This document shows positions 2,303-38,743 of a stretch of 39,850 nt of DNA, piece after piece. This DNA comes from Bacteroidaceae bacterium (GTDB lineage Bacteria; Bacteroidota; Bacteroidia; Bacteroidales; Bacteroidaceae), in contig JAFUAH010000021.1 in NCBI GenBank assembly GCA_017464345.1, forward strand, positions 1 to 39,850, read 5' to 3'. The position numbers were made by a program, and so were the translations under genes. Positions within the stretch are counted from its first letter, which is position 1. The number at the start of each line of letters is the position of its first letter. Under the pieces are notes generated by a model. The model worked only from the letters and a program-made list of their open reading frames with translations. It was not told where the DNA came from and ran no database searches.

Positions 2303-5164
2303 TCACAGCAACTTGAAGCGGACGGTGGCAAGGACGTTGCGCGGACGGAGTTGGGAGATGTGAGTATAGATGTCGAGACCGGAATAGGTGACGCGGGTGT
2401 AGCGACGCTGGTCGAAGAGGTTGTTGAGTTGGAGTTCCAGGTCACAGCGACCAATCTTGTACTTGGCCTTGACGTCGCCGAACCAAGCGTGGCGGTGGGT
2501 GGCGGTGAGGTTCGTATAGTTGTCCTCGACGGAGGCGGCGAGGGTCATTCGCTTGGTGACATAGACGTTCATGGAGAGGCGCTGGGTGGCGGAGCGAAGA
2601 ACAGACCCACCCCCTGCCCTCCCTGTTAGGGAGGGAGTGGTCGCCTCTCCGGAATGGTCGGTCTTGGAAACACTCCAACTGTAGCCACTGCTCAGGACGA
2701 AGTTGAGCCAAGGCAGGGGCGTGATGGTGCCGCCGGCTCCGAGGCTGATGGTGCGGCTGTTGAAGGGATAGAGTTGCCCGGCTATCAACTGTTCGCTGTG
2801 GCTGTGGCCGTAACCGCCGAAGGCACGGAGGGTGGTTTGCAGCCAGTCGAAGCCCTTGCTGAAGTCGAAGCCGAGTTTGTAGGAGTCGGACGTGGTGGCC
2901 TGATTGACGGCTTGCACGACGCTGGTGGCACCCTCGTAGGTGTAGCCGTAGATTTGGTTGTCGCGGGTGTGGTTGTAACTGGCGTTGAGGCGGAAGAACA
3001 GGGCGTTCAGGGCACTCCGATAGCCGATGCTGGCACTGGTGCCCACGCGGTCGGTCTCGGAGAGTTGCTCGACGTAGGAGCGCTGGAAGGTGCGGTAGTT
3101 CGACATGATGTAACCCGAATAGATGCCGCCCGGGTCGCCCACGTTTCTGTAATACGAGGCACTGACGCTTCCGCTCCAGTCGCGCCAGTCGTAACTGGTA
3201 GAGAAGTTGGGCGATACGAGCAGGTGGACGTAGCCGTGCCGGTCGTCGCGCACACGGTCATCAAGGGTCTGCGTATAGAGGTTCAGGGGACAGCCGAGGC
3301 TGATGCGCCAACTGCCTCGCTCCCATTTGTAGTGCTGCCCAAGGGTCAGTTCGTAGGTGTTGTACCAGAGGTTATTCCGGAGGGAGGGGGCGTCGGCGAT
3401 AGAATCGCCGACCACACGACCCGATGCTGGTGGCACGAAGCCGTCGAGGTCGGTCGTAATGCCGTGGAGACTGGCGTTGGCAATCACACCGTAGGCGAGG
3501 GTGAAGAAGCCGAAACGGAAGTTGTAGTTGGTGTGGAAGTTGGCGTTGATGTGACGCGATTCGATGTCTTGCTGGTAAAATTGAGAATTGAAAATTGAAG
3601 ATTGAGGATTGGCTATGCTTGCGGAATTATCCATATACGAAAGCGAATCCACACCCACCGTCAGCATGTTGGGGCGCTGCGCATAGCCGGCGGAGAAATG
3701 CAGGTCGAGCGTATGTTTGCCGATGTTCTTGATGAGGTTGGTGGTGTTGCTGACGGCAAGCGAGGGGCGGTCGAAGTGCTGGTGGACAGACTCACTGCCA
3801 TAATCCCTAACCTGCTGGTTACTCCCCACAGGTAATTGTGAATTGTGCATTATGCATTGTGAATTGAGCAGCCCCTCCACGCGGTCGTCGTTCCAACTGC
3901 CGTCGAACTTCACGACGTTGGCCAGGAAACCATCCTTGGCGTTCCACATATAGCGGAGGTTGCCGCTGAGGTCGTTGAGGTGCGTGCGCGATGTCAGCAT
4001 CTCGGTGGTCAGCAGGCGGGTGTCGTCAGTGACGAAGCGGTCGCTCTCCGACGTACCTTCGCGCCGGATGTCGTCGTGGCGGTACGCCACGTTCACCGTC
4101 ACCTCCGAATCCTTGCCCACCTTCTCCAGATGGTTCATGGTGGCGATGTGGCTATGGTTGTCGAAGGTGCGCTTCTGCGACAGGCCTGCACCCGAGGGCA
4201 GGACGACATTCGTGGGGCAGAAAGGATAGAGGCCGACGCTGTTGATGCTGGAATAGTGCGAGGTCAGTTCTGCCGACACGTCGTCGCCCGTGTTGTTACC
4301 TTTATATAGAGACATGTTCTGGCGACGCTTGGCGAAGTACATGCCTACCACTTCGGCGGCCCACAACGGGTTCTGGCCGATGACCTTCGCCCCGTCGGAA
4401 AGGGGACGACTGCCGATGCGCCACGGGCTCGACTGCTGCCATCCCGCCCCCACCATCGTGTTCACGGCCACGGTGCCCTTGGCCGAGTTCTTCAGTTTCA
4501 GGTTGATGGCCACGTCGTCGGTGATGCCTTTGTCCTGCAAGGCCTTGATGGGTTGGTGGTGCTCCAGCACCTGCACGCTGGCCACGTCCGAGGCGTTGAT
4601 GTTGTTCGTGGCCAAGCCATAGCGCCCTTGCAGGAGGTCCATGTCCTCGACGTAGAACTTCTTGATGGCCTTGCCGTTGAACTTGATGGCTCCGCTCTCC
4701 GACACCTCGATGCCCGGCATACGCTTCAGCACGTCGCCGATGACGCGGTCGCCCTGCTGCTGATAGGCCCCGACAAGGTAACTGAGCGTGTCGCCGTGCT
4801 GTCGGATTTTGTCCGCCTTGACGGTCACCTCCTTCAGTTCCATCTGCTGTTCGCGCACACGGAAGTCCACCCTCTGCGAACGGTTGGCCACGATGCGCGC
4901 CCGATTGCCGATGGTCAGCCCCGATGCAGTGACGGTCAGGGAGTCGGCCGTGCTTCGGAACTCCAGTCGGTAGTGGCCTTTGGCATCGGTGTCGGCGTAC
5001 TTGAGAATGCCGCCCGTGCCCTTCGGCCCAACGGTCACGAAGGCGTCCACGGCCTGCCCGAGAGAGTCCGTCACCGTGCCCTCGATGACCGTCTGGGCAC
5101 CGGCAGAACAAGGCACAAAGGAGAGGGCTGCCACCAGAGGCAGCATAGCAAATATTTGTTTCAT
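2303..5164 (-). CDS. TonB-dependent outer-membrane receptor, 953 aa
   Basis: A signal peptide (MKQIFAMLPLVAALSFV, cleavage near SAGAQ) is followed by a carboxypeptidase-regulatory-like beta domain (residues ~25-110: VIEGTVTDSLGQAVDAFVTV). A plug-like region comes next (~115-225), with KADKIRQHGDTLSYLVGAY, GDVLKRMPGIEVSESGAIKFNGK and FYVEDMDLL. A beta-barrel rich in alternating aromatics runs to the C-terminus. The GDTLSY plus RMPGIEV pattern marks the SusC-related receptors that lack a SusD partner. It is the third gene of a minus-strand operon with an ECF sigma factor and a TonB-like protein, starting 12 bp after the latter's stop. The barrel holds two heptamer arrays and one GC-rich hairpin insert in open frame, listed separately. 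The transported ligand is unknown. Confidence 0.85.
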   Translation of the reverse strand: MKQIFAMLPLVAALSFVPCSAGAQTVIEGTVTDSLGQAVDAFVTVGPKGTGGILKYADTDAKGHYRLEFRSTADSLTVTASGLTIGNRARIVANRSQRVDFRVREQQMELKEVTVKADKIRQHGDTLSYLVGAYQQQGDRVIGDVLKRMPGIEVSESGAIKFNGKAIKKFYVEDMDLLQGRYGLATNNINASDVASVQVLEHHQPIKALQDKGITDDVAINLKLKNSAKGTVAVNTMVGAGWQQSSPWRIGSRPLSDGAKVIGQNPLWAAEVVGMYFAKRRQNMSLYKGNNTGDDVSAELTSHYSSINSVGLYPFCPTNVVLPSGAGLSQKRTFDNHSHIATMNHLEKVGKDSEVTVNVAYRHDDIRREGTSESDRFVTDDTRLLTTEMLTSRTHLNDLSGNLRYMWNAKDGFLANVVKFDGSWNDDRVEGLLNSQCIMHNSQLPVGSNQQVRDYGSESVHQHFDRPSLAVSNTTNLIKNIGKHTLDLHFSAGYAQRPNMLTVGVDSLSYMDNSASIANPQSSIFNSQFYQQDIESRHINANFHTNYNFRFGFFTLAYGVIANASLHGITTDLDGFVPPASGRVVGDSIADAPSLRNNLWYNTYELTLGQHYKWERGSWRISLGCPLNLYTQTLDDRVRDDRHGYVHLLVSPNFSTSYDWRDWSGSVSASYYRNVGDPGGIYSGYIMSNYRTFQRSYVEQLSETDRVGTSASIGYRSALNALFFRLNASYNHTRDNQIYGYTYEGATSVVQAVNQATTSDSYKLGFDFSKGFDWLQTTLRAFGGYGHSHSEQLIAGQLYPFNSRTISLGAGGTITPLPWLNFVLSSGYSWSVSKTDHSGEATTPSLTGRAGGGSVLRSATQRLSMNVYVTKRMTLAASVEDNYTNLTATHRHAWFGDVKAKYKIGRCDLELQLNNLFDQRRYTRVTYSGLDIYTHISQLRPRNVLATVRFKLL
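2601..2640. repeat. GC-rich hairpin element inside the receptor gene
   Basis: CCCTCCCT (2617-2624) and AGGGAGGG (2628-2635) form a perfect 8-bp dyad with a 3-nt loop, inside a run of C and G. On the minus strand it is translated as TPSLTGRAGGGSV within the barrel, an unusual loop for this family. Similar GC-rich elements are frequent between genes of Prevotella-like genomes (general recollection). The related-looking tail of the TonB-like gene is at 5196-5232. Confidence 0.55.
3577..3611. repeat. Heptamer array in the receptor gene (five units)
   Basis: Five consecutive 7-mers (AAAATTG, AGAATTG, AAAATTG, AAGATTG, AGGATTG) lie within the barrel coding sequence. On the coding strand they give NPQSSIFNSQF, which looks foreign in a barrel loop. 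The reading frame stays open. Confidence 0.7.
3834..3868. repeat. Second heptamer array in the receptor gene (five units)
   Basis: Five consecutive 7-mers (AATTGTG, AATTGTG, CATTATG, CATTGTG, AATTGAG) are translated on the minus strand as LNSQCIMHNSQL. The unit is related to the array at 3577 and the frame stays open. Confidence 0.7.
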
Positions 5165-11677: not shown

Positions 11678-12535
11678 GTGCTGCATAAAGATTTCCAAGG
11701 TTATGAACGCACGTTCCAAGGTTTGGTTTGTGCGTTCCAAGGTTTGGTACGCAGGTTCCAAACTTATGTCCCGTCCAAGCAATACGTCCCTACAACCTTT
11801 GCAATACGTCCTTATGGCCTTTGCAATACATCGTTACGGTCTTTGCAATATATCGTTGTCCTCTTTACGCCGTATGCTTGCAATCAGAGCATCGTGGCCT
11901 TTAATCTCTTCTGCCCTTTCATCAAGATGCTGGAGCAGGGGAAACAGCAACTGGCCACCGACATTCTGCAACACGTTTTCCCTGAATATGGCATACAGGA
12001 GGTGACCGAAGTGAGGCTGGAATACCTCCATGAGGACATCCAGAACTACCTGAACGACAAAACCGCGATGGATGCTATCATACGCTATCGGGACGTTGAA
12101 GGCCAGCAGTCCTTCATTGCCATCGAAACGAAATACACCGATACACTTAACCCGAACAGTGCAAGCCGAACAGAACGACACAAGGAATGGATTAAAAGGT
12201 TGGGCGTGTTCAAAAAAGCCTCCGAGGAAGAACTTTTGGACGGTAGGCGGGCAATCAGCCAAATCTATCGGAACTTTCTGCTGACGGAATCGTATGGTGT
12301 CGTCGAAGGTGCTAACAGATACTATTCCGTGGTGCTGTCGCCAGCCCTGCATCCGACAACCGAGGTGGAGGTTGCATCAGTGCGGGACGAATTGCTCCCA
12401 CAATACCAATACAAGTTGCGTGCCGTCTCGCTTGAGTCCTTTATCGAACAAGCATTGGCCGTATGTCCCCAGGAGGAGACCGCACCCTTTAATTATTTCT
12501 ATCGCCGTTATCTCGATTTCTCAAAACTGACATGA
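11678..12535 (+). CDS. PGN_0703-like PD-(D/E)XK nuclease, N-terminus replaced by tandem repeats
   Basis: The frame from ATG 11678 gives 285 aa, but residues 1 to ~64 are translated tandem repeats (FQGYERT, FQGLVCA, FQGLVRR). Homology-like sequence starts around NQSIVAFNLFCPFIKMLEQG. The nuclease core follows: DAIIRYRD, then FIAIETKYTDTL, giving a D...E-x-K triad, and later RRAISQIYRNFLL and PFNYFYRRY at the end. This fits the PGN_0703-like putative restriction endonucleases, which normally have about 60-100 more true N-terminal residues (recollection). The stop codon overlaps the ATG of the phosphoesterase gene by 4 nt. It may be a decayed nuclease or a shortened working one; an internal ATG at 11927 is also possible. 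Confidence 0.6.
   Translation: MLHKDFQGYERTFQGLVCAFQGLVRRFQTYVPSKQYVPTTFAIRPYGLCNTSLRSLQYIVVLFTPYACNQSIVAFNLFCPFIKMLEQGKQQLATDILQHVFPEYGIQEVTEVRLEYLHEDIQNYLNDKTAMDAIIRYRDVEGQQSFIAIETKYTDTLNPNSASRTERHKEWIKRLGVFKKASEEELLDGRRAISQIYRNFLLTESYGVVEGANRYYSVVLSPALHPTTEVEVASVRDELLPQYQYKLRAVSLESFIEQALAVCPQEETAPFNYFYRRYLDFSKLT
11693..11868 (+). repeat. Two adjoining tandem arrays, 21-bp and 22-bp units
   Basis: Set 1 has units starting TTCCAAGG or TTCCAAAC at 11693, 11714, 11735 and 11756, an exact 21-bp step. Set 2 has units starting AATACG, AATACG, AATACA and AATATA at 11781, 11803, 11825 and 11847, an exact 22-bp step, mostly ending CTTTGC. The first 8-11 bases are conserved in each unit and the rest drifts. 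They underlie the artificial N-terminus of the nuclease frame. Confidence 0.85.
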
Positions 12536-28509: not shown

Positions 28510-31500
28510 TTAGAAGCGACCGCCGCCACCGAAGCCTCCGCCGCCACCGCGACTGCCGCCATTACCACCATTACCGCCGCCGTTGCGACCTCCTCCATTA
28601 CCGCCTTCGCCACGACCACCTTCGCGACCTGCACGAGGACCGTCGCCATTGGGGCGCTCACGCATCCCCTCTTCGCGATTGCCGCGCTGGCCTTGACCGC
28701 GACCACCGAACTTGCCGAAGCGCCACTGGACGGAGAAGAGGACGTAGGAATTGACGGTCTCGTTGCGCGAGTCGGTGCGCTGGGTGGCGGAGATGGCACG
28801 GGAGATGTTGTCGCGCTGTTGCAAGATGTCGAGGGCACGGACGGAGAGGGTAAGCGTGCGCTTGCGCAGGAGGCGCTGGCTGAGCGAGGCGTTCCAGATG
28901 AGTTGGTTGGTGTTCATGGCCGCATCGGCATAGCCGCGACGGCTCTGCTCGGAGAGGTCAGTCGAGAAGGACATGCCCCAGGGGAACTGCAGGGTCATGG
29001 AGCCACCGTAGGAGAACGTGTAGGTGTCGAGATTAGAGGCCGAGGCGTTGGAGGCACGACTGTGGTTATAACCAGCACGACCATTGACACCTGCATCGAG
29101 GTTGTAGCCGCTCTCCCAGTCGCGACGATACGAGAGACGGAGCGACTGCGAGGCATTGAGGCCGCGCGTGCGATTCTTCACAGTCGCCTGCGTCTGCTTC
29201 TGATAGACGTAGGAGACGGCGTTGGTCATGGAGCCCGACGTCCCCATGTTGATTCGCCAATACTTCTCGGGGCCCAGGGCGGTGTTGAAGTTGAAGTTGG
29301 CCGAGCCGTTCCAGTTGCCGTTGATGTTCACGGGCTTCGAGATGCGTCCGCCCGTCACGTCGTTGTACTCGGTGCGGTTGGCCGTGGAGTTCTGCGTGGT
29401 GCGGAACGAGAGATTGAGCGACGAGGTGCGCTGCTTGTCAGTCACGGAGCGGCGATACGAGGCGTTCATGTTGTGGGTGAACGAAGGCTTCAGTTCGGGG
29501 TTACCGAGGCGGATGTTCAGCGGGTCGGCATTAGAGAGGGTGTCGGGGATGAGGTCTGTGATGGAGGGCTGCCCCGTCTGTCCGTTGTAGCGGAACTCCA
29601 GTTGCTCCTGGCGCGAGAACATGTAGCGGAAGTTGATGTTCGGCGAGGCGTTGAAGACGGAGCGGCGCACGTCGTAGTGGCGGGTGCCCTTGGTATAATC
29701 GACCTCGTTCACCTGCGGTTGCAGGTTGGCGCCGATGGTCAGGCGGTAGAGCGTGCGGTTGATGCGGAGTTGCAGGCGCAGGTTGTGGTTCTGGTATGTA
29801 TTGGTCGTGTAGTTACACTGGTCGATGTCGGGCGCGGCGATGCTCTCCCACTGGCGGTAGTTGTCGGCGGTGATGCCGTAGGTGTCATAGGGATTATAAG
29901 ACCCATCAGCCCTATCCATCCAGTCGAAGATGCTGCTGACGTTGCGGTCGCGGTCGGTGAATCGGCGGCTGTACTGATACGACATCTGCAGGAACATCTG
30001 CCGCCCGATGGGCTCGGTGTAGGAGAGTTGGGTGGAGATGTTGCGATTGCGGGACGGCGCATCGTTGTACTGAATCTTGTGGTAGATGGAGTCGTCGCCC
30101 GTCGTGGCCAGTATCTGGTAGTAATCGACGTGGCTGTAGGACTGGCTCTCGCTCGTGGAGTGGCCGTATCCGGCTTCGGCGTTCAGCGTCACGTTGCGCC
30201 CGGGCTTCTGGAGTCGGCGATTCACTTGCAGGGAGCCGCTGACGTTGAAGTTCTTCGACTCCGAGCGACTGCGATTCTCGCGGTGGTTTACGCCGATGAG
30301 CGGTGCCAGTGCCTGATAGTCGGCCAGGGGGTCGGTGGAGAGCATATAGGGGTCGTCCTGGAAGGCCGCGCTCTCGCTGGCCGAACGGCTGTCGGAGCCC
30401 GTCCACGAGATGTTGGGGCGCAGGAGGATGTTCGTCATCGAGTCGGGCCGCCACTCCACCTTGTAGTTGAACGAGAGGTTGCGGTTATGGTTGGCGCTTT
30501 GGCTCCACGAGTTCGAGTAGGCTGCCGTCTGATTTTCGAAACTCTGCGAGTTGCGCCACGACTGGCTCTTGCCCTGCGAGAAGTTGCCATTGAGGCTTCC
30601 GTTCAGTTCCAGCAGAGGCTCCTTCTTTACCCTGTCCGACGCATTCTTCATTTTCTCGCTCTCCCCGTTTCTCATTTTCTGGTAATTCATCGTCGCACCG
30701 CCCGACTGGTTGTCCGTCATGCCGTTGCCCTGCGTGTTGTTCGCGTTGCCGATGACCGAGAACTTCTGGTCGCCCACGAAGCGATTCACCATCAGTCGCC
30801 CATTGTAGCGGTCGTGCGTACCGTAGGCCCCGTCTAGGTTGCCAAACCATCCGCGCTTGCGATTCTTCTTTATCGTCAGGTCGAGCACCGTGCGCTCCTG
30901 TCCGTCGTCCACGCCAGTGATGCGGGCGTAGTCGCTCTGCTTGTCGTAGGCCTTCACCTTGTCCACGATTTCCGCCGGCAAGTTCTTCAACACGAGGTCG
31001 CGATTGTTGCCGAAGAACTCCTTGCCATCGACCAGGAACTGGCTGACCGTCTTGCCGTTCCACGTGTATGAGCCGTCGTCGTTCACCACCACGCCGGGCA
31101 GTTTCTTGATGAGTTCCTCCACGACTGCACCCTCGGGGAGTTTGTAGGCATCGGCGTTGTACATGATGGTGTCATCGACCACCACCATCTCCGGCAGTTT
31201 GCCCTCCACGACGGTCTCCGCCATCACCTTCGCATCCTCACGCATCAGGATGTCCTTCACGCGGAAATTTCCCGATTTCTTGGGCAAGGTTAGCGTAAAC
31301 TTCTGCTCCTTGAAGCCCATGAACGAGACTTGCAGGATGTACGTCCCCGTAGGGATGCCCGGCAGGGTGAAGAGCCCGTTCTTCTGCACCAGTGCCCCGG
31401 CCACCTGTGTCGAGTCCGTACGGAGCAGTCTCACCTGTGCCCCCTCCAGCGGGTCGAGCGACTGATTCTCGTACACCATGCCACGAATCGTAAGCCGCAA

Positions 31501-31569
31501 TGAGTCCGCCTGCCCCAGGGCCGACAGGGAAAAGAGTAATATGGAGATTGTGAACAAGAATCGTCGCAT
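28510..31569 (-). CDS. SusC-related outer-membrane beta-barrel receptor with glycine-rich tail, 1019 aa
   Basis: The start at ATG 31567-31569 gives a signal peptide (MRRFLFTISILLFSLSALGQ). A carboxypeptidase-regulatory-like domain follows (~20-105: LTIRGMVYENQSLDPLEGAQ), then a plug-like region with DDTIMYNADAYKLPEGAVVEELIKKLPGVVVNDDGSYTWNGK and FLVDGKEFFGNN. An outer-membrane beta-barrel of the OMP_b-brl_3 type runs to SVQWRFGKF. After this expected end comes a 65-residue tail (28510-28707) of Gly, Arg, Asn and Ser repeats ending in Phe. It stands alone with no SusD or TonB gene beside it. Upstream lies the CTATTAG array. The ligand is unknown. Confidence 0.85.
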   Translation of the reverse strand: MRRFLFTISILLFSLSALGQADSLRLTIRGMVYENQSLDPLEGAQVRLLRTDSTQVAGALVQKNGLFTLPGIPTGTYILQVSFMGFKEQKFTLTLPKKSGNFRVKDILMREDAKVMAETVVEGKLPEMVVVDDTIMYNADAYKLPEGAVVEELIKKLPGVVVNDDGSYTWNGKTVSQFLVDGKEFFGNNRDLVLKNLPAEIVDKVKAYDKQSDYARITGVDDGQERTVLDLTIKKNRKRGWFGNLDGAYGTHDRYNGRLMVNRFVGDQKFSVIGNANNTQGNGMTDNQSGGATMNYQKMRNGESEKMKNASDRVKKEPLLELNGSLNGNFSQGKSQSWRNSQSFENQTAAYSNSWSQSANHNRNLSFNYKVEWRPDSMTNILLRPNISWTGSDSRSASESAAFQDDPYMLSTDPLADYQALAPLIGVNHRENRSRSESKNFNVSGSLQVNRRLQKPGRNVTLNAEAGYGHSTSESQSYSHVDYYQILATTGDDSIYHKIQYNDAPSRNRNISTQLSYTEPIGRQMFLQMSYQYSRRFTDRDRNVSSIFDWMDRADGSYNPYDTYGITADNYRQWESIAAPDIDQCNYTTNTYQNHNLRLQLRINRTLYRLTIGANLQPQVNEVDYTKGTRHYDVRRSVFNASPNINFRYMFSRQEQLEFRYNGQTGQPSITDLIPDTLSNADPLNIRLGNPELKPSFTHNMNASYRRSVTDKQRTSSLNLSFRTTQNSTANRTEYNDVTGGRISKPVNINGNWNGSANFNFNTALGPEKYWRINMGTSGSMTNAVSYVYQKQTQATVKNRTRGLNASQSLRLSYRRDWESGYNLDAGVNGRAGYNHSRASNASASNLDTYTFSYGGSMTLQFPWGMSFSTDLSEQSRRGYADAAMNTNQLIWNASLSQRLLRKRTLTLSVRALDILQQRDNISRAISATQRTDSRNETVNSYVLFSVQWRFGKFGGRGQGQRGNREEGMRERPNGDGPRAGREGGRGEGGNGGGRNGGGNGGNGGSRGGGGGFGGGGRF

Positions 31570-31640
31570 ATAGGATAGACCCACGCAGGACGGGAAGGTT
31601 TAAGGGCAGGAAGGAGAAACATCGGGCACGTCGGAATCCT

Positions 31641-31885
31641 CGCTATTAGAGAGGGGTGCGTGCTCGCTATTAGTGCGCCAGATTTCTCGCTATTAGCGAA
31701 CAATTCTCCTCGCTATTAGCGAGCAGGGGTAGTTGGCTATTAGCGAGCAAGAAAGTTCGCTAATAGCGAGAACTGAGGCGGGCTAATAGCGAGAATTTGG
31801 GCGCACTAATAGCGAGGAAAATGGTGCCCTAATAGAGTGGCCACTGACGCATTACTAATGCGCTGCACCGCACACTAATAGCAAG
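31641..31885. repeat. Spaced array of a near-palindromic motif, 11 units, orientation inverts midway
   Basis: CTATTAG cores start at 31643, 31667, 31690, 31713 and 31737; CTAATAG (the reverse complement) cores start at 31760, 31783, 31806, 31829 and 31875, with a CTAATG at 31855. Steps are 24, 23, 23, 24, 23, 23, 23, 23, then 26 and 20. The best conserved unit is CTCGCTATTAGCGAG; the ~10 bases between units share no sequence. It lies in the noncoding stretch between the receptor start and the HU-like gene, with no gene of its own. Confidence 0.9.
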
Positions 31886-31886
31886 A

Positions 31887-31933
31887 CAGAAAAGAGATGC
31901 GCGACCTCCGACGGGAAGCCACGCATCTTTCTG
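31887..31933 (-). terminator. Possible terminator of the HU-like gene
   Basis: CAGAAAAGAGATGCG (31887-31902) pairs with CGCATCTTTCTG (31922-31933) with small bulges, 26 bp past the HU-like stop on the minus strand. The T-run is weak. Confidence 0.5.
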
Positions 31934-31958
31934 TTTCTAAGTCCTTTGACTTGCGAGT

Positions 31959-32432
31959 TTACTCGGTGATGTCCCCCGGGTCGCCCCAGCCGCTGTTACC
32001 GCCCGACGTAGAGGAGCCGGACGACTTCGAGGTCTTCTTCTCCATCGTCTTGGTGCTCTGGAAGTCGGCCTGCTGCAATTCGAAGCGGAACTCCTTCGAG
32101 AGCACGCAGTGGGGGCGCACCTCCTTGATTTTCGCCGCCGTGCATTCGGCCTCCGTGTCGGCACCCTCGGCACGCAGGGTAACCTTGAACGTCGCCCAGT
32201 CGCCCAACTTCACCGTACGTCCGGCCTTCAGCAGGATGAGGATGGCCTTGCGGGCCTGTGCGATGGCCATTTCGGCCTCCTTAGGGTTGAGGGTGGTCTC
32301 GTCGGCAATGATTTTTGCTACTTCCTTCTCGGTGGCAGGGCTGATGCTCTTGGCCACGGGGTACCACTTCTTCTCGGCATTCTTGTCCGAGGGGTTGCTT
32401 GTGCGCAGGGTTTTGTTATAAAAAATAGCCAT
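31959..32432 (-). CDS. HU/DNABII-like DNA-binding protein of the Bacteroidota type, 157 aa
   Basis: MAIFYNKTLRTSNPSDKNAEKKWYPVAKS is the usual opening of these proteins. The HU-like core is ATEKEVAKIIADETTLNPKEAEMAIAQARKAILILLKAGRTVKLGDWATFKVTLR (~residues 32-90), with the helical dimer part and the start of the beta arm. The C-terminal ~60 residues end in a Ser/Gly-rich tail (SKSSGSSTSGGNSGWGDPGD). It likely binds and bends DNA. It has a strong promoter and a ~145-nt leader, and is divergent from the structured RNA at 32759. No small hydrophobic companion gene is seen downstream. Confidence 0.85.
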   Translation of the reverse strand: MAIFYNKTLRTSNPSDKNAEKKWYPVAKSISPATEKEVAKIIADETTLNPKEAEMAIAQARKAILILLKAGRTVKLGDWATFKVTLRAEGADTEAECTAAKIKEVRPHCVLSKEFRFELQQADFQSTKTMEKKTSKSSGSSTSGGNSGWGDPGDITE

Positions 32433-32616: not shown

Positions 32617-32722
32617 TCCCTTAACCATGCTTAACAAACTTAACCTTTGCTAACTTAAAGGATTTAACATACGCCCCCGCAATGCCTTAATAGATGTGAA
32701 AATGCAATTCCTCCCGTTAATA

Positions 32723-32754
32723 TTTGTTGCTTCGCGGATTATTCCCTATCTTTG
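32723..32754 (+). promoter_or_regulatory. Promoter of the structured RNA
   Basis: TTTG (32723-32726), 20 bp, TATCTTTG (32747-32754): full consensus, with the first stem of the RNA beginning about 5 bp later. Confidence 0.8.
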
Positions 32755-37393: not shown

Positions 37394-37424
37394 AATTTCA
37401 ACTTTCAATTTTCAACTTTCAATT
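37394..37424. repeat. Heptamer array between rluB and asnS
   Basis: AATTTCA, ACTTTCA, ATTTTCA, ACTTTCA and part of a fifth unit, in strict 7-bp steps. It fills the gap from the rluB stop codon to within a few bases of the asnS start. Confidence 0.7.
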
Positions 37425-38743
37425 TATTCAAACGCTCCCATTCTGAGCATGTTCACCTCGGCCTCGGTCAGGAAGCGCCAGTCGCCACGACGCACGTTCT
37501 TCTTCGTCAGACCGGCGAAGTAGACACGGTCGAGTTTCATCACCTTGTAACCCAGGTGTTCGAAGATGCGACGCACGATGCGGTTGCGGCCCGAGTGAAT
37601 CTCGATGCCCACCTGCTTCTTGTCCTTCTCGTCGGCATACTCGATGGCATCGGCCCTGATGGGGCCGTCCTCCAGTTCGATGCCCTCGGCTATCTGACGC
37701 ATGTCGGCAGCCGTGACGTTCTTGTCGAGGAAGACGTGGTAAATCTTCTTTTTCTTGTACTGGGGATGCGTGAGTTTCGAGGCCAGTTCGCCGTCGTTGG
37801 TGAGCAGGAGCACGCCCGTCGTGTTACGGTCGAGACGGCCCACGGGATAGATGCGTTCCTTGCAGGCATCCTTCACGAGATCCATCACCGTCTTGCGATT
37901 CTGGGGGTCGTCGCTCGTAGTCACGGTGTCCTTGGGCTTGTTCAGCAGGACATAGACCTTGCGTTCAGGCGTGATGAGTTGGTCGTGGAAGAGCACGCTG
38001 TCGGTGCGCATCACCTTCGTGCCCAGTTCCGTCACCACCTGACCGTTCACGCGCACGACACCTGCCTGGATGAAGTCGTCGGCCTCGCGACGGCTGCATA
38101 CGCCCGAATTGGCCAGGAACTTGTTCAGGCGGATGGGCTCGTTGGGGTCGTAGTGCTGTTCCTTGTACTCTATCTGCTTCTTCATGCTGTACTTGGCATG
38201 GGGATTATAGCCGGACGTACGCTGACGGTATCCGCCACGCTGCTGACCATAGCCGCCCTCACGACGCTGATAGCCTCCCTCGCGATTATAGCCTCCCTGA
38301 CGGTTGTAGCCACCTTCGCGACGCTGACCGTAGCCACCCTCGCGATTGTAGCCGCCTTCGCGCTGATAACCTCCTTCACGATTCTGGCCATAGCCGCCTT
38401 CACGACGGGGACGATAACCGCCCTCGCGCTGCTGATAACCGCCCTCGCGATTGTAACCACTCTCGCGACGCTGATAGCCGCCTTCACGTTGGTAACCGCC
38501 TTCGCGACGCTGACCATAGCCGCCCTCACGGTTGTAGCCATCCTCGCGATGCTGACCATAGCCGCCCTGCGGGCGAGCAGGCTCGTATGTACTGCTACGC
38601 TGAATGCGGGGACGCTTCGTGCGACCCTCGCCGCTGTTATTGAAACTTCTGGATTGTCCATTGTTGTAGGGACGATAACCCTCCCGGTCGCCGTTCCTCT
38701 CGTCGGAGAACTGCTCTCTCCAACGGTTGTCTTCGTTAATCAT
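37424..38743 (-). CDS. rluB: RluB/RsuA-type 23S/16S rRNA pseudouridine synthase with repeat-rich N-terminus, 439 aa
   Basis: Residues 1-59 are polar and disordered. Residues 60-180 (38204-38566) are ~20 repeats of a 6-10 residue GGYxxRRE unit. An S4 RNA-binding domain spans ~203-250 (IRLNKFLANSGVCSRREADDF), then the catalytic domain with GRLDRNTTGVLLLTNDG (catalytic Asp305) and GRNRIVRRIFEHLGYKV. It isomerises a uridine in rRNA. Which RNA it modifies cannot be told, so the gene name is by similarity. The Arg/Gly/Tyr repeats probably add nonspecific RNA binding, and such extensions are typical in Bacteroidota. It lies 71 bp after purB, with a CTAGG array in the gap. Confidence 0.88.
   Translation of the reverse strand: MINEDNRWREQFSDERNGDREGYRPYNNGQSRSFNNSGEGRTKRPRIQRSSTYEPARPQGGYGQHREDGYNREGGYGQRREGGYQREGGYQRRESGYNREGGYQQREGGYRPRREGGYGQNREGGYQREGGYNREGGYGQRREGGYNRQGGYNREGGYQRREGGYGQQRGGYRQRTSGYNPHAKYSMKKQIEYKEQHYDPNEPIRLNKFLANSGVCSRREADDFIQAGVVRVNGQVVTELGTKVMRTDSVLFHDQLITPERKVYVLLNKPKDTVTTSDDPQNRKTVMDLVKDACKERIYPVGRLDRNTTGVLLLTNDGELASKLTHPQYKKKKIYHVFLDKNVTAADMRQIAEGIELEDGPIRADAIEYADEKDKKQVGIEIHSGRNRIVRRIFEHLGYKVMKLDRVYFAGLTKKNVRRGDWRFLTEAEVNMLRMGAFE

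Follow-up and report, generated by a model that had tools for sequence, protein, structure and literature searches.

A phased array of TANTA-centred palindromes in a rumen Bacteroidaceae bacterium and its dispersed relatives within one genus

What keeps a series of short motifs at an almost constant pitch when the bases between them bear no resemblance to each other is the question raised by an intergenic locus of a rumen bacterium of the family Bacteroidaceae. The window, by which the whole analysed stretch of 39,850 nucleotides is meant, had been described in an initial annotation, made from its letters alone, as carrying a spaced array of 11 motifs in which CTATTAG is followed by CTAATAG in steps of 23-24 bp, and this description was confirmed at positions 31639-31885. 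The reading preferred here, to which a probability of roughly one half is given, is that the array is one copy of a family of phased DNA-binding sites (15-bp TANTA palindromes every 23 bp), which would be spread by mobile DNA and altered by the gain and loss of units. A literature search, with thin coverage of subscription journals, gave no description of this array family among the papers listed.

Architecture of the window array

The array (31639-31885, without strand assignment) comprises 11 units, each a 15-bp palindrome (7-1-7) centred on TA-N-TA and in some cases imperfect, which are separated by spacers of 8-9 bp and recur with a period of 23-24 bp. Five CTATTAG motifs, starting at 31643, 31667, 31690, 31713 and 31737, are followed by CTAATAG motifs at 31760, 31783, 31806, 31829 and 31875, and the unit-to-unit steps are, in order, 24, 23, 23, 24, 23, 23, 23, 23, 23 and 23 bp. 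The number of CTAATAG motifs, formerly given as five or six, is five when exact copies are counted; the eleventh member of the array, the unit at 31852, reads TTACTAA and is missed by an exact-motif search. This unit, the tenth in position (31848-31862, no strand assigned), lies inside the perfect palindrome CGCATTACTAATGCG, the two arms of which are unlike those of the other units, yet match each other, so that both arms have been altered jointly and the palindrome is still perfect. Unit 4 (31709-31723, likewise unstranded) is the perfect palindrome CTCGCTATTAGCGAG, which folds as a DNA hairpin with a 6-bp stem and a 3-base loop. In the whole window CTATTAG and CTAATAG occur 15 times against 2.6 expected, a number reached in 0 of 100 shuffles, and 10 of the 15 occurrences fall in the array. 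The palindromes within the array are 71% identical (0.71), whereas the spacers, as had been proposed, are unrelated, their identity of 0.258 being that of chance (shuffled mean 0.251, sd 0.022; 729 of 2000 shuffles as high). The earlier view that this is not ordinary tandem duplication is supported.

Two further proposals concerned geometry. A giant imperfect dyad does exist, with its centre at 31728 rather than at about 31750, and the longest inverted repeat pairs 31663-31720 with 31736-31793 (58 nt, 81%). Its uniqueness is weakened by near-equal rivals of 57 nt at 74%, 54 nt at 74% and 35 nt at 91%, and four centres have similar scores over the entire array, because the array is a run of palindromes. 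The DNA helix makes one turn in about 10.5 bp. Steps of 23-24 bp therefore correspond to about 2.2 turns, and successive cores rotate by about 70-100 degrees instead of lining up on one face of the DNA, as had been argued.

Some other repeats of the window were recorded in passing. Two adjacent short tandem arrays, built of units of 21 bp (TTCCAAGGTTTGGTACGCACG-like) and 22 bp (GCAATACGTCCTTACGGCCTTT-like), occupy 11693-11866 at the start of the open reading frame 11678-12535; runs of 7-bp tandem repeats with differing units occur at 3577, 3834, 8251, 11575, 37396 and 39828; and imperfect repeats of 18, 39, 42 and 60 bp lie at 38259-38568 within a pseudouridine synthase gene (37424-38743).

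Copies within the genome and across the genus

The genome of the window (G000), a 1.9-Mb assembly that is 61% complete, holds three further large arrays, on contigs C3 (at 40.7k), C10 (168.5k) and C30 (13.6k), and a short array with another arm type at C10:1.9k. Of 24 places with at most two mismatches to CTCGCTAWTAGCGAG, 22 lie inside the four large arrays, and the large copies have the same order of units and the same position of the central 24-bp step as the window array. The portion 31641-31798 (plus strand) was matched by blastn to the C3, C10 and C30 copies over 155-159 bp at 81-84% identity, with no homologous flank beyond and no match to the window outside the array. When five copies, four from G000 and one from genome G016, were compared, TANTA was 100%, the inner arms 86% and the outer arms 82% identical, against 58% for the spacers and 61% for the centre base; the difference between TANTA with inner arms and the spacers was reached by 0 of 10000 permutations. 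Between dispersed copies, the spacers have drifted far and the sites have stayed. CTATTAG and CTAATAG are reverse complements of each other that differ solely in the central base of the palindrome, and the reversal of orientation at the middle of the array, to which meaning had been attached, concerns this variable base and is of little significance. Whether the array is a decayed tandem repeat, as had been considered, receives a divided answer: the spacing is non-random and the spacers are unrelated within an array, but between copies they are homologous by position (58%).

The C30 and C10 arrays of G000 have orthologues in G016. The array on G016:C25 corresponds to that on C30, with surrounding stretches of 94-97% identity and one of 81%, and is shorter by exactly three units (70 bp; read by eye). 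The orthologue of the C10 array (L015, G016:C19) is followed by a different gene from that in G000. In G000 a segment of about 4.9 kb, the first gene of which is of the PF14905 family, lies directly to the right of the array and is missing from that place in G016; the C10 array may border an insertion or deletion.

A search of the genome and its relatives for the motif pattern, which the initial annotation had suggested, led to arrays of the same pitch and with other arms in the genus. In the 139 genomes examined from the genus, pairs of CTAWTAG with one mismatch allowed were matched in 38, although many of these matches did not rise above the reversed control. The model R1, which was trained on this genus, gave matches in 21 of the 139. 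Arrays were inspected in 18 of these 21 genomes (those other than G007, G109 and G158), from the part of the R1 matches that was fetched. With both strands counted, R1 matched 31 times in G061 and 28 times in G072. Arrays elsewhere in the genus combine the same pitch with arms such as GACT/AGTC, AAGT/ACTT, AAGC/GCTT, GGAG and others, and in one array (L023, in G139) CTAATAG units grade into TTAGTAA units with the arms changing in step. Chaining by TANTA spacing alone gave 63 arrays with 308 units, in which steps of 23 bp (221) greatly outnumber those of 24 (14) and 22 (10). These loci gave no chain with any of 13 other spacings; as they had been selected for arrays, this shows no more than a clean background. 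Similar arrays with a 22-bp step were seen at L122 (G089) and L124 (G146), and one array occurs in two contigs of G078 (L111 and L112) that are 100% identical around it over 4.1 kb or more, which is a recent duplication or an assembly artefact.

Beyond the genus, R1 matched in a sample of 393 genomes of the order the genome of the window and, weakly, two others, one match resembling a simple GGCTGTTA-type repeat and the other AT-rich, perhaps coding DNA; in a phylum sample of 395 genomes it matched the genome of the window alone. No array match was found among viral contigs, plasmids and phages. These wider scans combined the stricter filters of Infernal with R1, and distant kinds of array would be missed because of these filters and the training on one genus. 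The arrays thus form a dispersed, genus-restricted intergenic family in which dyad, centre and pitch are maintained, and most of the species of that genus that were examined have none. The array recurs at other loci with the same spacing and, in one species, inside a mobile element.

Neighbouring genes, placement and mobility

The neighbours that had been named were confirmed, the window array lying between two minus-strand genes, which are context and not part of the element. One, at 28510-31584, encodes an outer-membrane beta-barrel protein with a carboxypeptidase-regulatory-like N-terminus (PF14905, PF13620), whose in-frame ATG at 31569, read by eye, is about 70 bp from the array; the other, at 31959-32432, encodes an HU-HIG DNA-binding protein (PF18291) and has its 3' end toward the array. 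A terminator-like hairpin seen by eye at 31890-31934 (minus strand) follows the HU-HIG gene and is assigned to that gene rather than to the array because a homologous stretch is present in G016 (L137) without an array, with one TTATTAG beside it (by eye). In G016 the receptor and HU-HIG stretches lie apart, so that no clean empty site can be defined at the window locus. Separately, a stretch of 58 bp that contains TATCTTTGCAACGTG is 98% identical between the window (32697-32754) and L137 (820-877) at places that do not correspond to each other; it may be a promoter common to both or a further dispersed repeat.

A link with HU was not supported at other loci, where no HU-type family was found among 16 open reading frames scanned at nine array loci outside the window. 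A Pfam match was obtained for 11 of these 16, some of which were picked mechanically and may not be genes. The one family that recurs with the window among array neighbours is PF14905, found beside the window array and beside the C10 array (L006), which lies upstream of an OMP_b-brl_3 gene (L006 6367-8547). This recurrence, together with the short distance to the ATG, is what would favour a local regulatory platform of outer-membrane receptor genes. Such a role is nevertheless very unlikely. In G016 no array stands upstream of the orthologue of the window's receptor, and the array orthologous to C10 precedes another gene, the DNA to its right matching G000 4.9 kb further on. Beside the C3 and C30 arrays genes of other types are found, and a divergent setting occurs in just 2 of 43 arrays.

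This last count comes from an analysis of placement, for which genes were called by a codon-usage script written for this work. No called gene encloses any of the 63 arrays completely, and 6 of a looser set of 75 overlap the end of one. Among the 43 arrays with both neighbours within 600 bp, 22 lie between convergent, 19 between tandem and 2 between divergent genes, compared with 16 (8%), 164 and 25 of the 205 other gaps in the same loci; the convergent excess has p ~3e-10, and p ~2e-8 when the comparison is restricted to the 90 gaps of 100 bp or more, 6 of which are convergent. The looser set of 75 gave 27 convergent, 25 tandem, 6 divergent and 17 unresolved cases. At least one gene 3' end faces 41 of the 43 arrays and 180 of the 205 other gaps, and the excess is confined to convergent gaps. 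This placement argues against a general function in promoter control. It would be expected if promoters are avoided or if the arrays act at the ends of genes, although convergent placement may be mere tolerance.

With regard to mobility, the units in G061 are carried by a short non-coding element whose leader and tail are conserved. Four such elements have inverted repeats GGTTCATCCGAYATTTGGAGTG at both ends and target duplications of 8 bp, which are perfect in two cases and have one mismatch in the other two. Clear arrays are present in three of the four, and the fourth, of 927 bp (G061:C91:27663-28589, L144), contains degenerate units only, as judged by eye, and shows no evident transposase in its list of open reading frames. 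A fifth element, on C90, has an internal run of N and a similar appearance by eye. These elements are MITEs with the array as cargo. In a scan of 18 loci for terminal-repeat pairs, 14 gave no pair; in the window, 12 inverted repeats were found in 31480-32060, none of which joins flanks outside the array, and the arrays of G072 (by eye) and of G000 are mostly without MITE-type ends. A link to RAYT/Y1 transposases was not supported, as PF01797 shows no association with the arrays (present in 4 of 21 genomes that have them and in 45 of 118 others; Fisher p 0.14) and was not found in the genome of the window as assembled (61% complete).

The carriage by MITEs with 8-bp target duplications in G061 lends itself to the main rival explanation, in which a selfish or passive palindromic minisatellite would multiply its units by slippage or recombination, be dispersed by MITEs or other mobile pieces and have its palindromes perfected by hairpin-templated (template-switch) mutation, with no host function and with placement reflecting tolerance. 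The three-unit (70-bp) difference between C30 and G016:C25, the patchy distribution (21 of 139 genomes) and the closeness of several arrays to contig ends are also consistent with it. A passive repeat should, however, decay evenly, whereas in the window the spacers are at chance and the palindromes 71% identical; TANTA is 100% identical between diverged copies, and the period of 23 is kept in most arrays despite the different sequences of the lineages. This explanation is accordingly rated as possible, though rather unlikely.

Covariation of the arms and relation to known systems

The symmetry of the units is accompanied by joint change of the arms. In 17 rows of four units, all 20 arm pairs showed changes on both sides (shuffled mean 16.7), and the covariation was 0.592 compared with 0.228 for shuffled and 0.06-0.22 for slid registers; the rows had been placed by the CTAWTAG pattern in a fixed register, so that the pairs at k=4-7 are the less biased ones. 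Over the 308 units, complementarity ranges over 0.64-0.82 for k=3-7, compared with 0.41-0.46 in a global shuffle, and over 0.28-0.36 for k=8-11. Pairing stops at +/-7, the value of 0.68 at k=7 being followed by one of 0.28 at k=8; since most later arrays were found through R1, and the loci through patterns or a model that favour arrays, these palindrome rates lean upward. In the arm-blind set, unit-by-unit covariation inside arrays stands out at k=3 and 4 alone, and beyond k=4 the agreement of the arms is between arrays. In a set of 121 units covariation was likewise positive at k=3 and 4, and a joint shuffle over k=3-8 was not significant (796 of 5000 as high).

Covariation of this kind would also be expected of an RNA element, transcribed at gene ends as a series of hairpins (of the AAGAUU-ANU-AAUCUU type) that end, stabilise or mark mRNAs. 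Strong RNA folds are predicted (z from -3.3 to -11 for six folds of five arrays), and several G072 arrays lie, by eye, between a stop codon and a terminator-like hairpin. Strong folds, and the DNA hairpins that are possible for each of eight units tried, are on the other hand expected of any run of palindromes. Selection on RNA pairing is expected to favour G.U. With the direction of the nearest gene end taken as sense, G.T is no commoner than A.C in the imperfect pairs (78 vs 90, p 0.40), which is not the pattern of G.U-tolerant compensatory change on the sense strand; 26 arrays point the same way as the nearest gene 3' end and 29 the opposite way, and Rfam gave no match at gathering score in 10 array sources. 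An RNA element is therefore considered improbable, the 3'-UTR idea that arose from G072 being set aside on the same two grounds of orientation independent of gene direction and no G.U excess, and the dyad seems to act at the level of DNA. A further idea, that the units might be tandem stop codons (YTARTAR, in three frames), leaves the covariation of the arms unexplained.

For the preferred reading, we infer from the dyad that the palindromes are DNA-level sites of a symmetric, presumably dimeric, candidate protein. Such a putative protein, which probably differs between lineages, would occupy neighbouring sites as a phased assembly, and the arrays would be copied as short mobile pieces and kept where promoters are unharmed; the assembly could act on the topology of the DNA or the packing of the chromosome where genes end, or could serve no more than the upkeep of the element itself. 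A platform for a DNA-binding protein would accordingly be, as far as sequence can tell, the best-fitting of the interpretations first offered, whereas the role in receptor expression offered with it appears unlikely. Against the binding-site reading, a dimer site alone needs no joint change of the arms within one array, and a hairpin or a palindrome-perfecting template-switch mutation would explain such change equally well.

The closest counterpart is BrickBuilt, a MITE of Porphyromonas gingivalis (Bacteroidales) with a 23-nt minisatellite; as portrayed in the sections of its description used here (PMC4596501), it resembles the arrays in its intergenic location, 23-nt unit, gain and loss of units, predicted long stem-loops and MITE context. 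On the consensus as printed, the best dyad has TARTA at its centre, and 5 of 7 positions pair out to +/-7 and 9 of 11 out to +/-11 (R/Y treated leniently). A TANTA centre with these values occurs in fractions of 0.023 and 0.00095, respectively, of shuffles, and some centre of any kind reaches them in 0.79, which is unremarkable, and 0.043; the 11-position test was added post hoc after the 7-position one, and a consensus rather than real copies was compared. BrickBuilt differs in the sequence of its unit, in its pairs at k=4 and 5, which fail, and in its terminal repeat, listed in Table 2 of PMC4596501 as GAGACCTTTGCA (GAGACC-type, IS5-like), compared with GGTTCATCCGAYATTTGGAGTG in G061. Furthermore, BrickBuilt as there described is a MITE, while few of the present arrays have terminal repeats. 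The main text of that paper never uses the string "palindrom" (PMC4596501). With two mismatches allowed, the BrickBuilt consensus was found in 0 of 393 Bacteroidales genomes, the genome of the window included and Porphyromonas not known to be among them. Two lineages may, to judge from these sequences, carry the same array design in MITEs with different ends.

REP and BIME elements are described in the cited sections as short palindromes in many extragenic copies (PMC3733652, PMC12306157), with REPs mostly between convergent and unidirectional open reading frames (PMC3733652). In so far as these sections describe them, the arrays are similar in being short, multi-copy extragenic palindromes that are mostly at gene 3' ends. 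They differ in their head-to-tail 23-bp phasing, in showing no association with a RAYT (Y1) transposase, and in that no constant tetranucleotide foot (GTAG/CGTC) was found in the window, where the spacers are at chance identity. CRISPR loci consist of repeats of about 24-48 bp with unique spacers. The arrays share with them repeats separated by unrelated spacers, and differ in having 15-bp palindromes and 8-bp spacers, in being dispersed in several copies and in having spacers that are shared by position between copies.

A wider and more tentative proposal, itself unlikely on the present comparisons, is that a Bacteroidales class of phased nucleoprotein arrays exists, in which a co-evolving dimeric protein would assemble along 15-bp TANTA palindromes every 23 bp and mark convergent gene ends. 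The arms would drift together with that protein around a constant centre and at a constant pitch, and BrickBuilt would be an unrecognised member of this class, carried by an unrelated MITE. If this were true, arrays with varied arms and one centre and pitch would make the partner protein findable by genome comparison or pull-down. They would also offer a test of why short palindromes gather at convergent gene ends, a question that extends to REP and BIME elements, and BrickBuilt would be recast, with the 23-nt minisatellite, not the MITE, as its conserved part.
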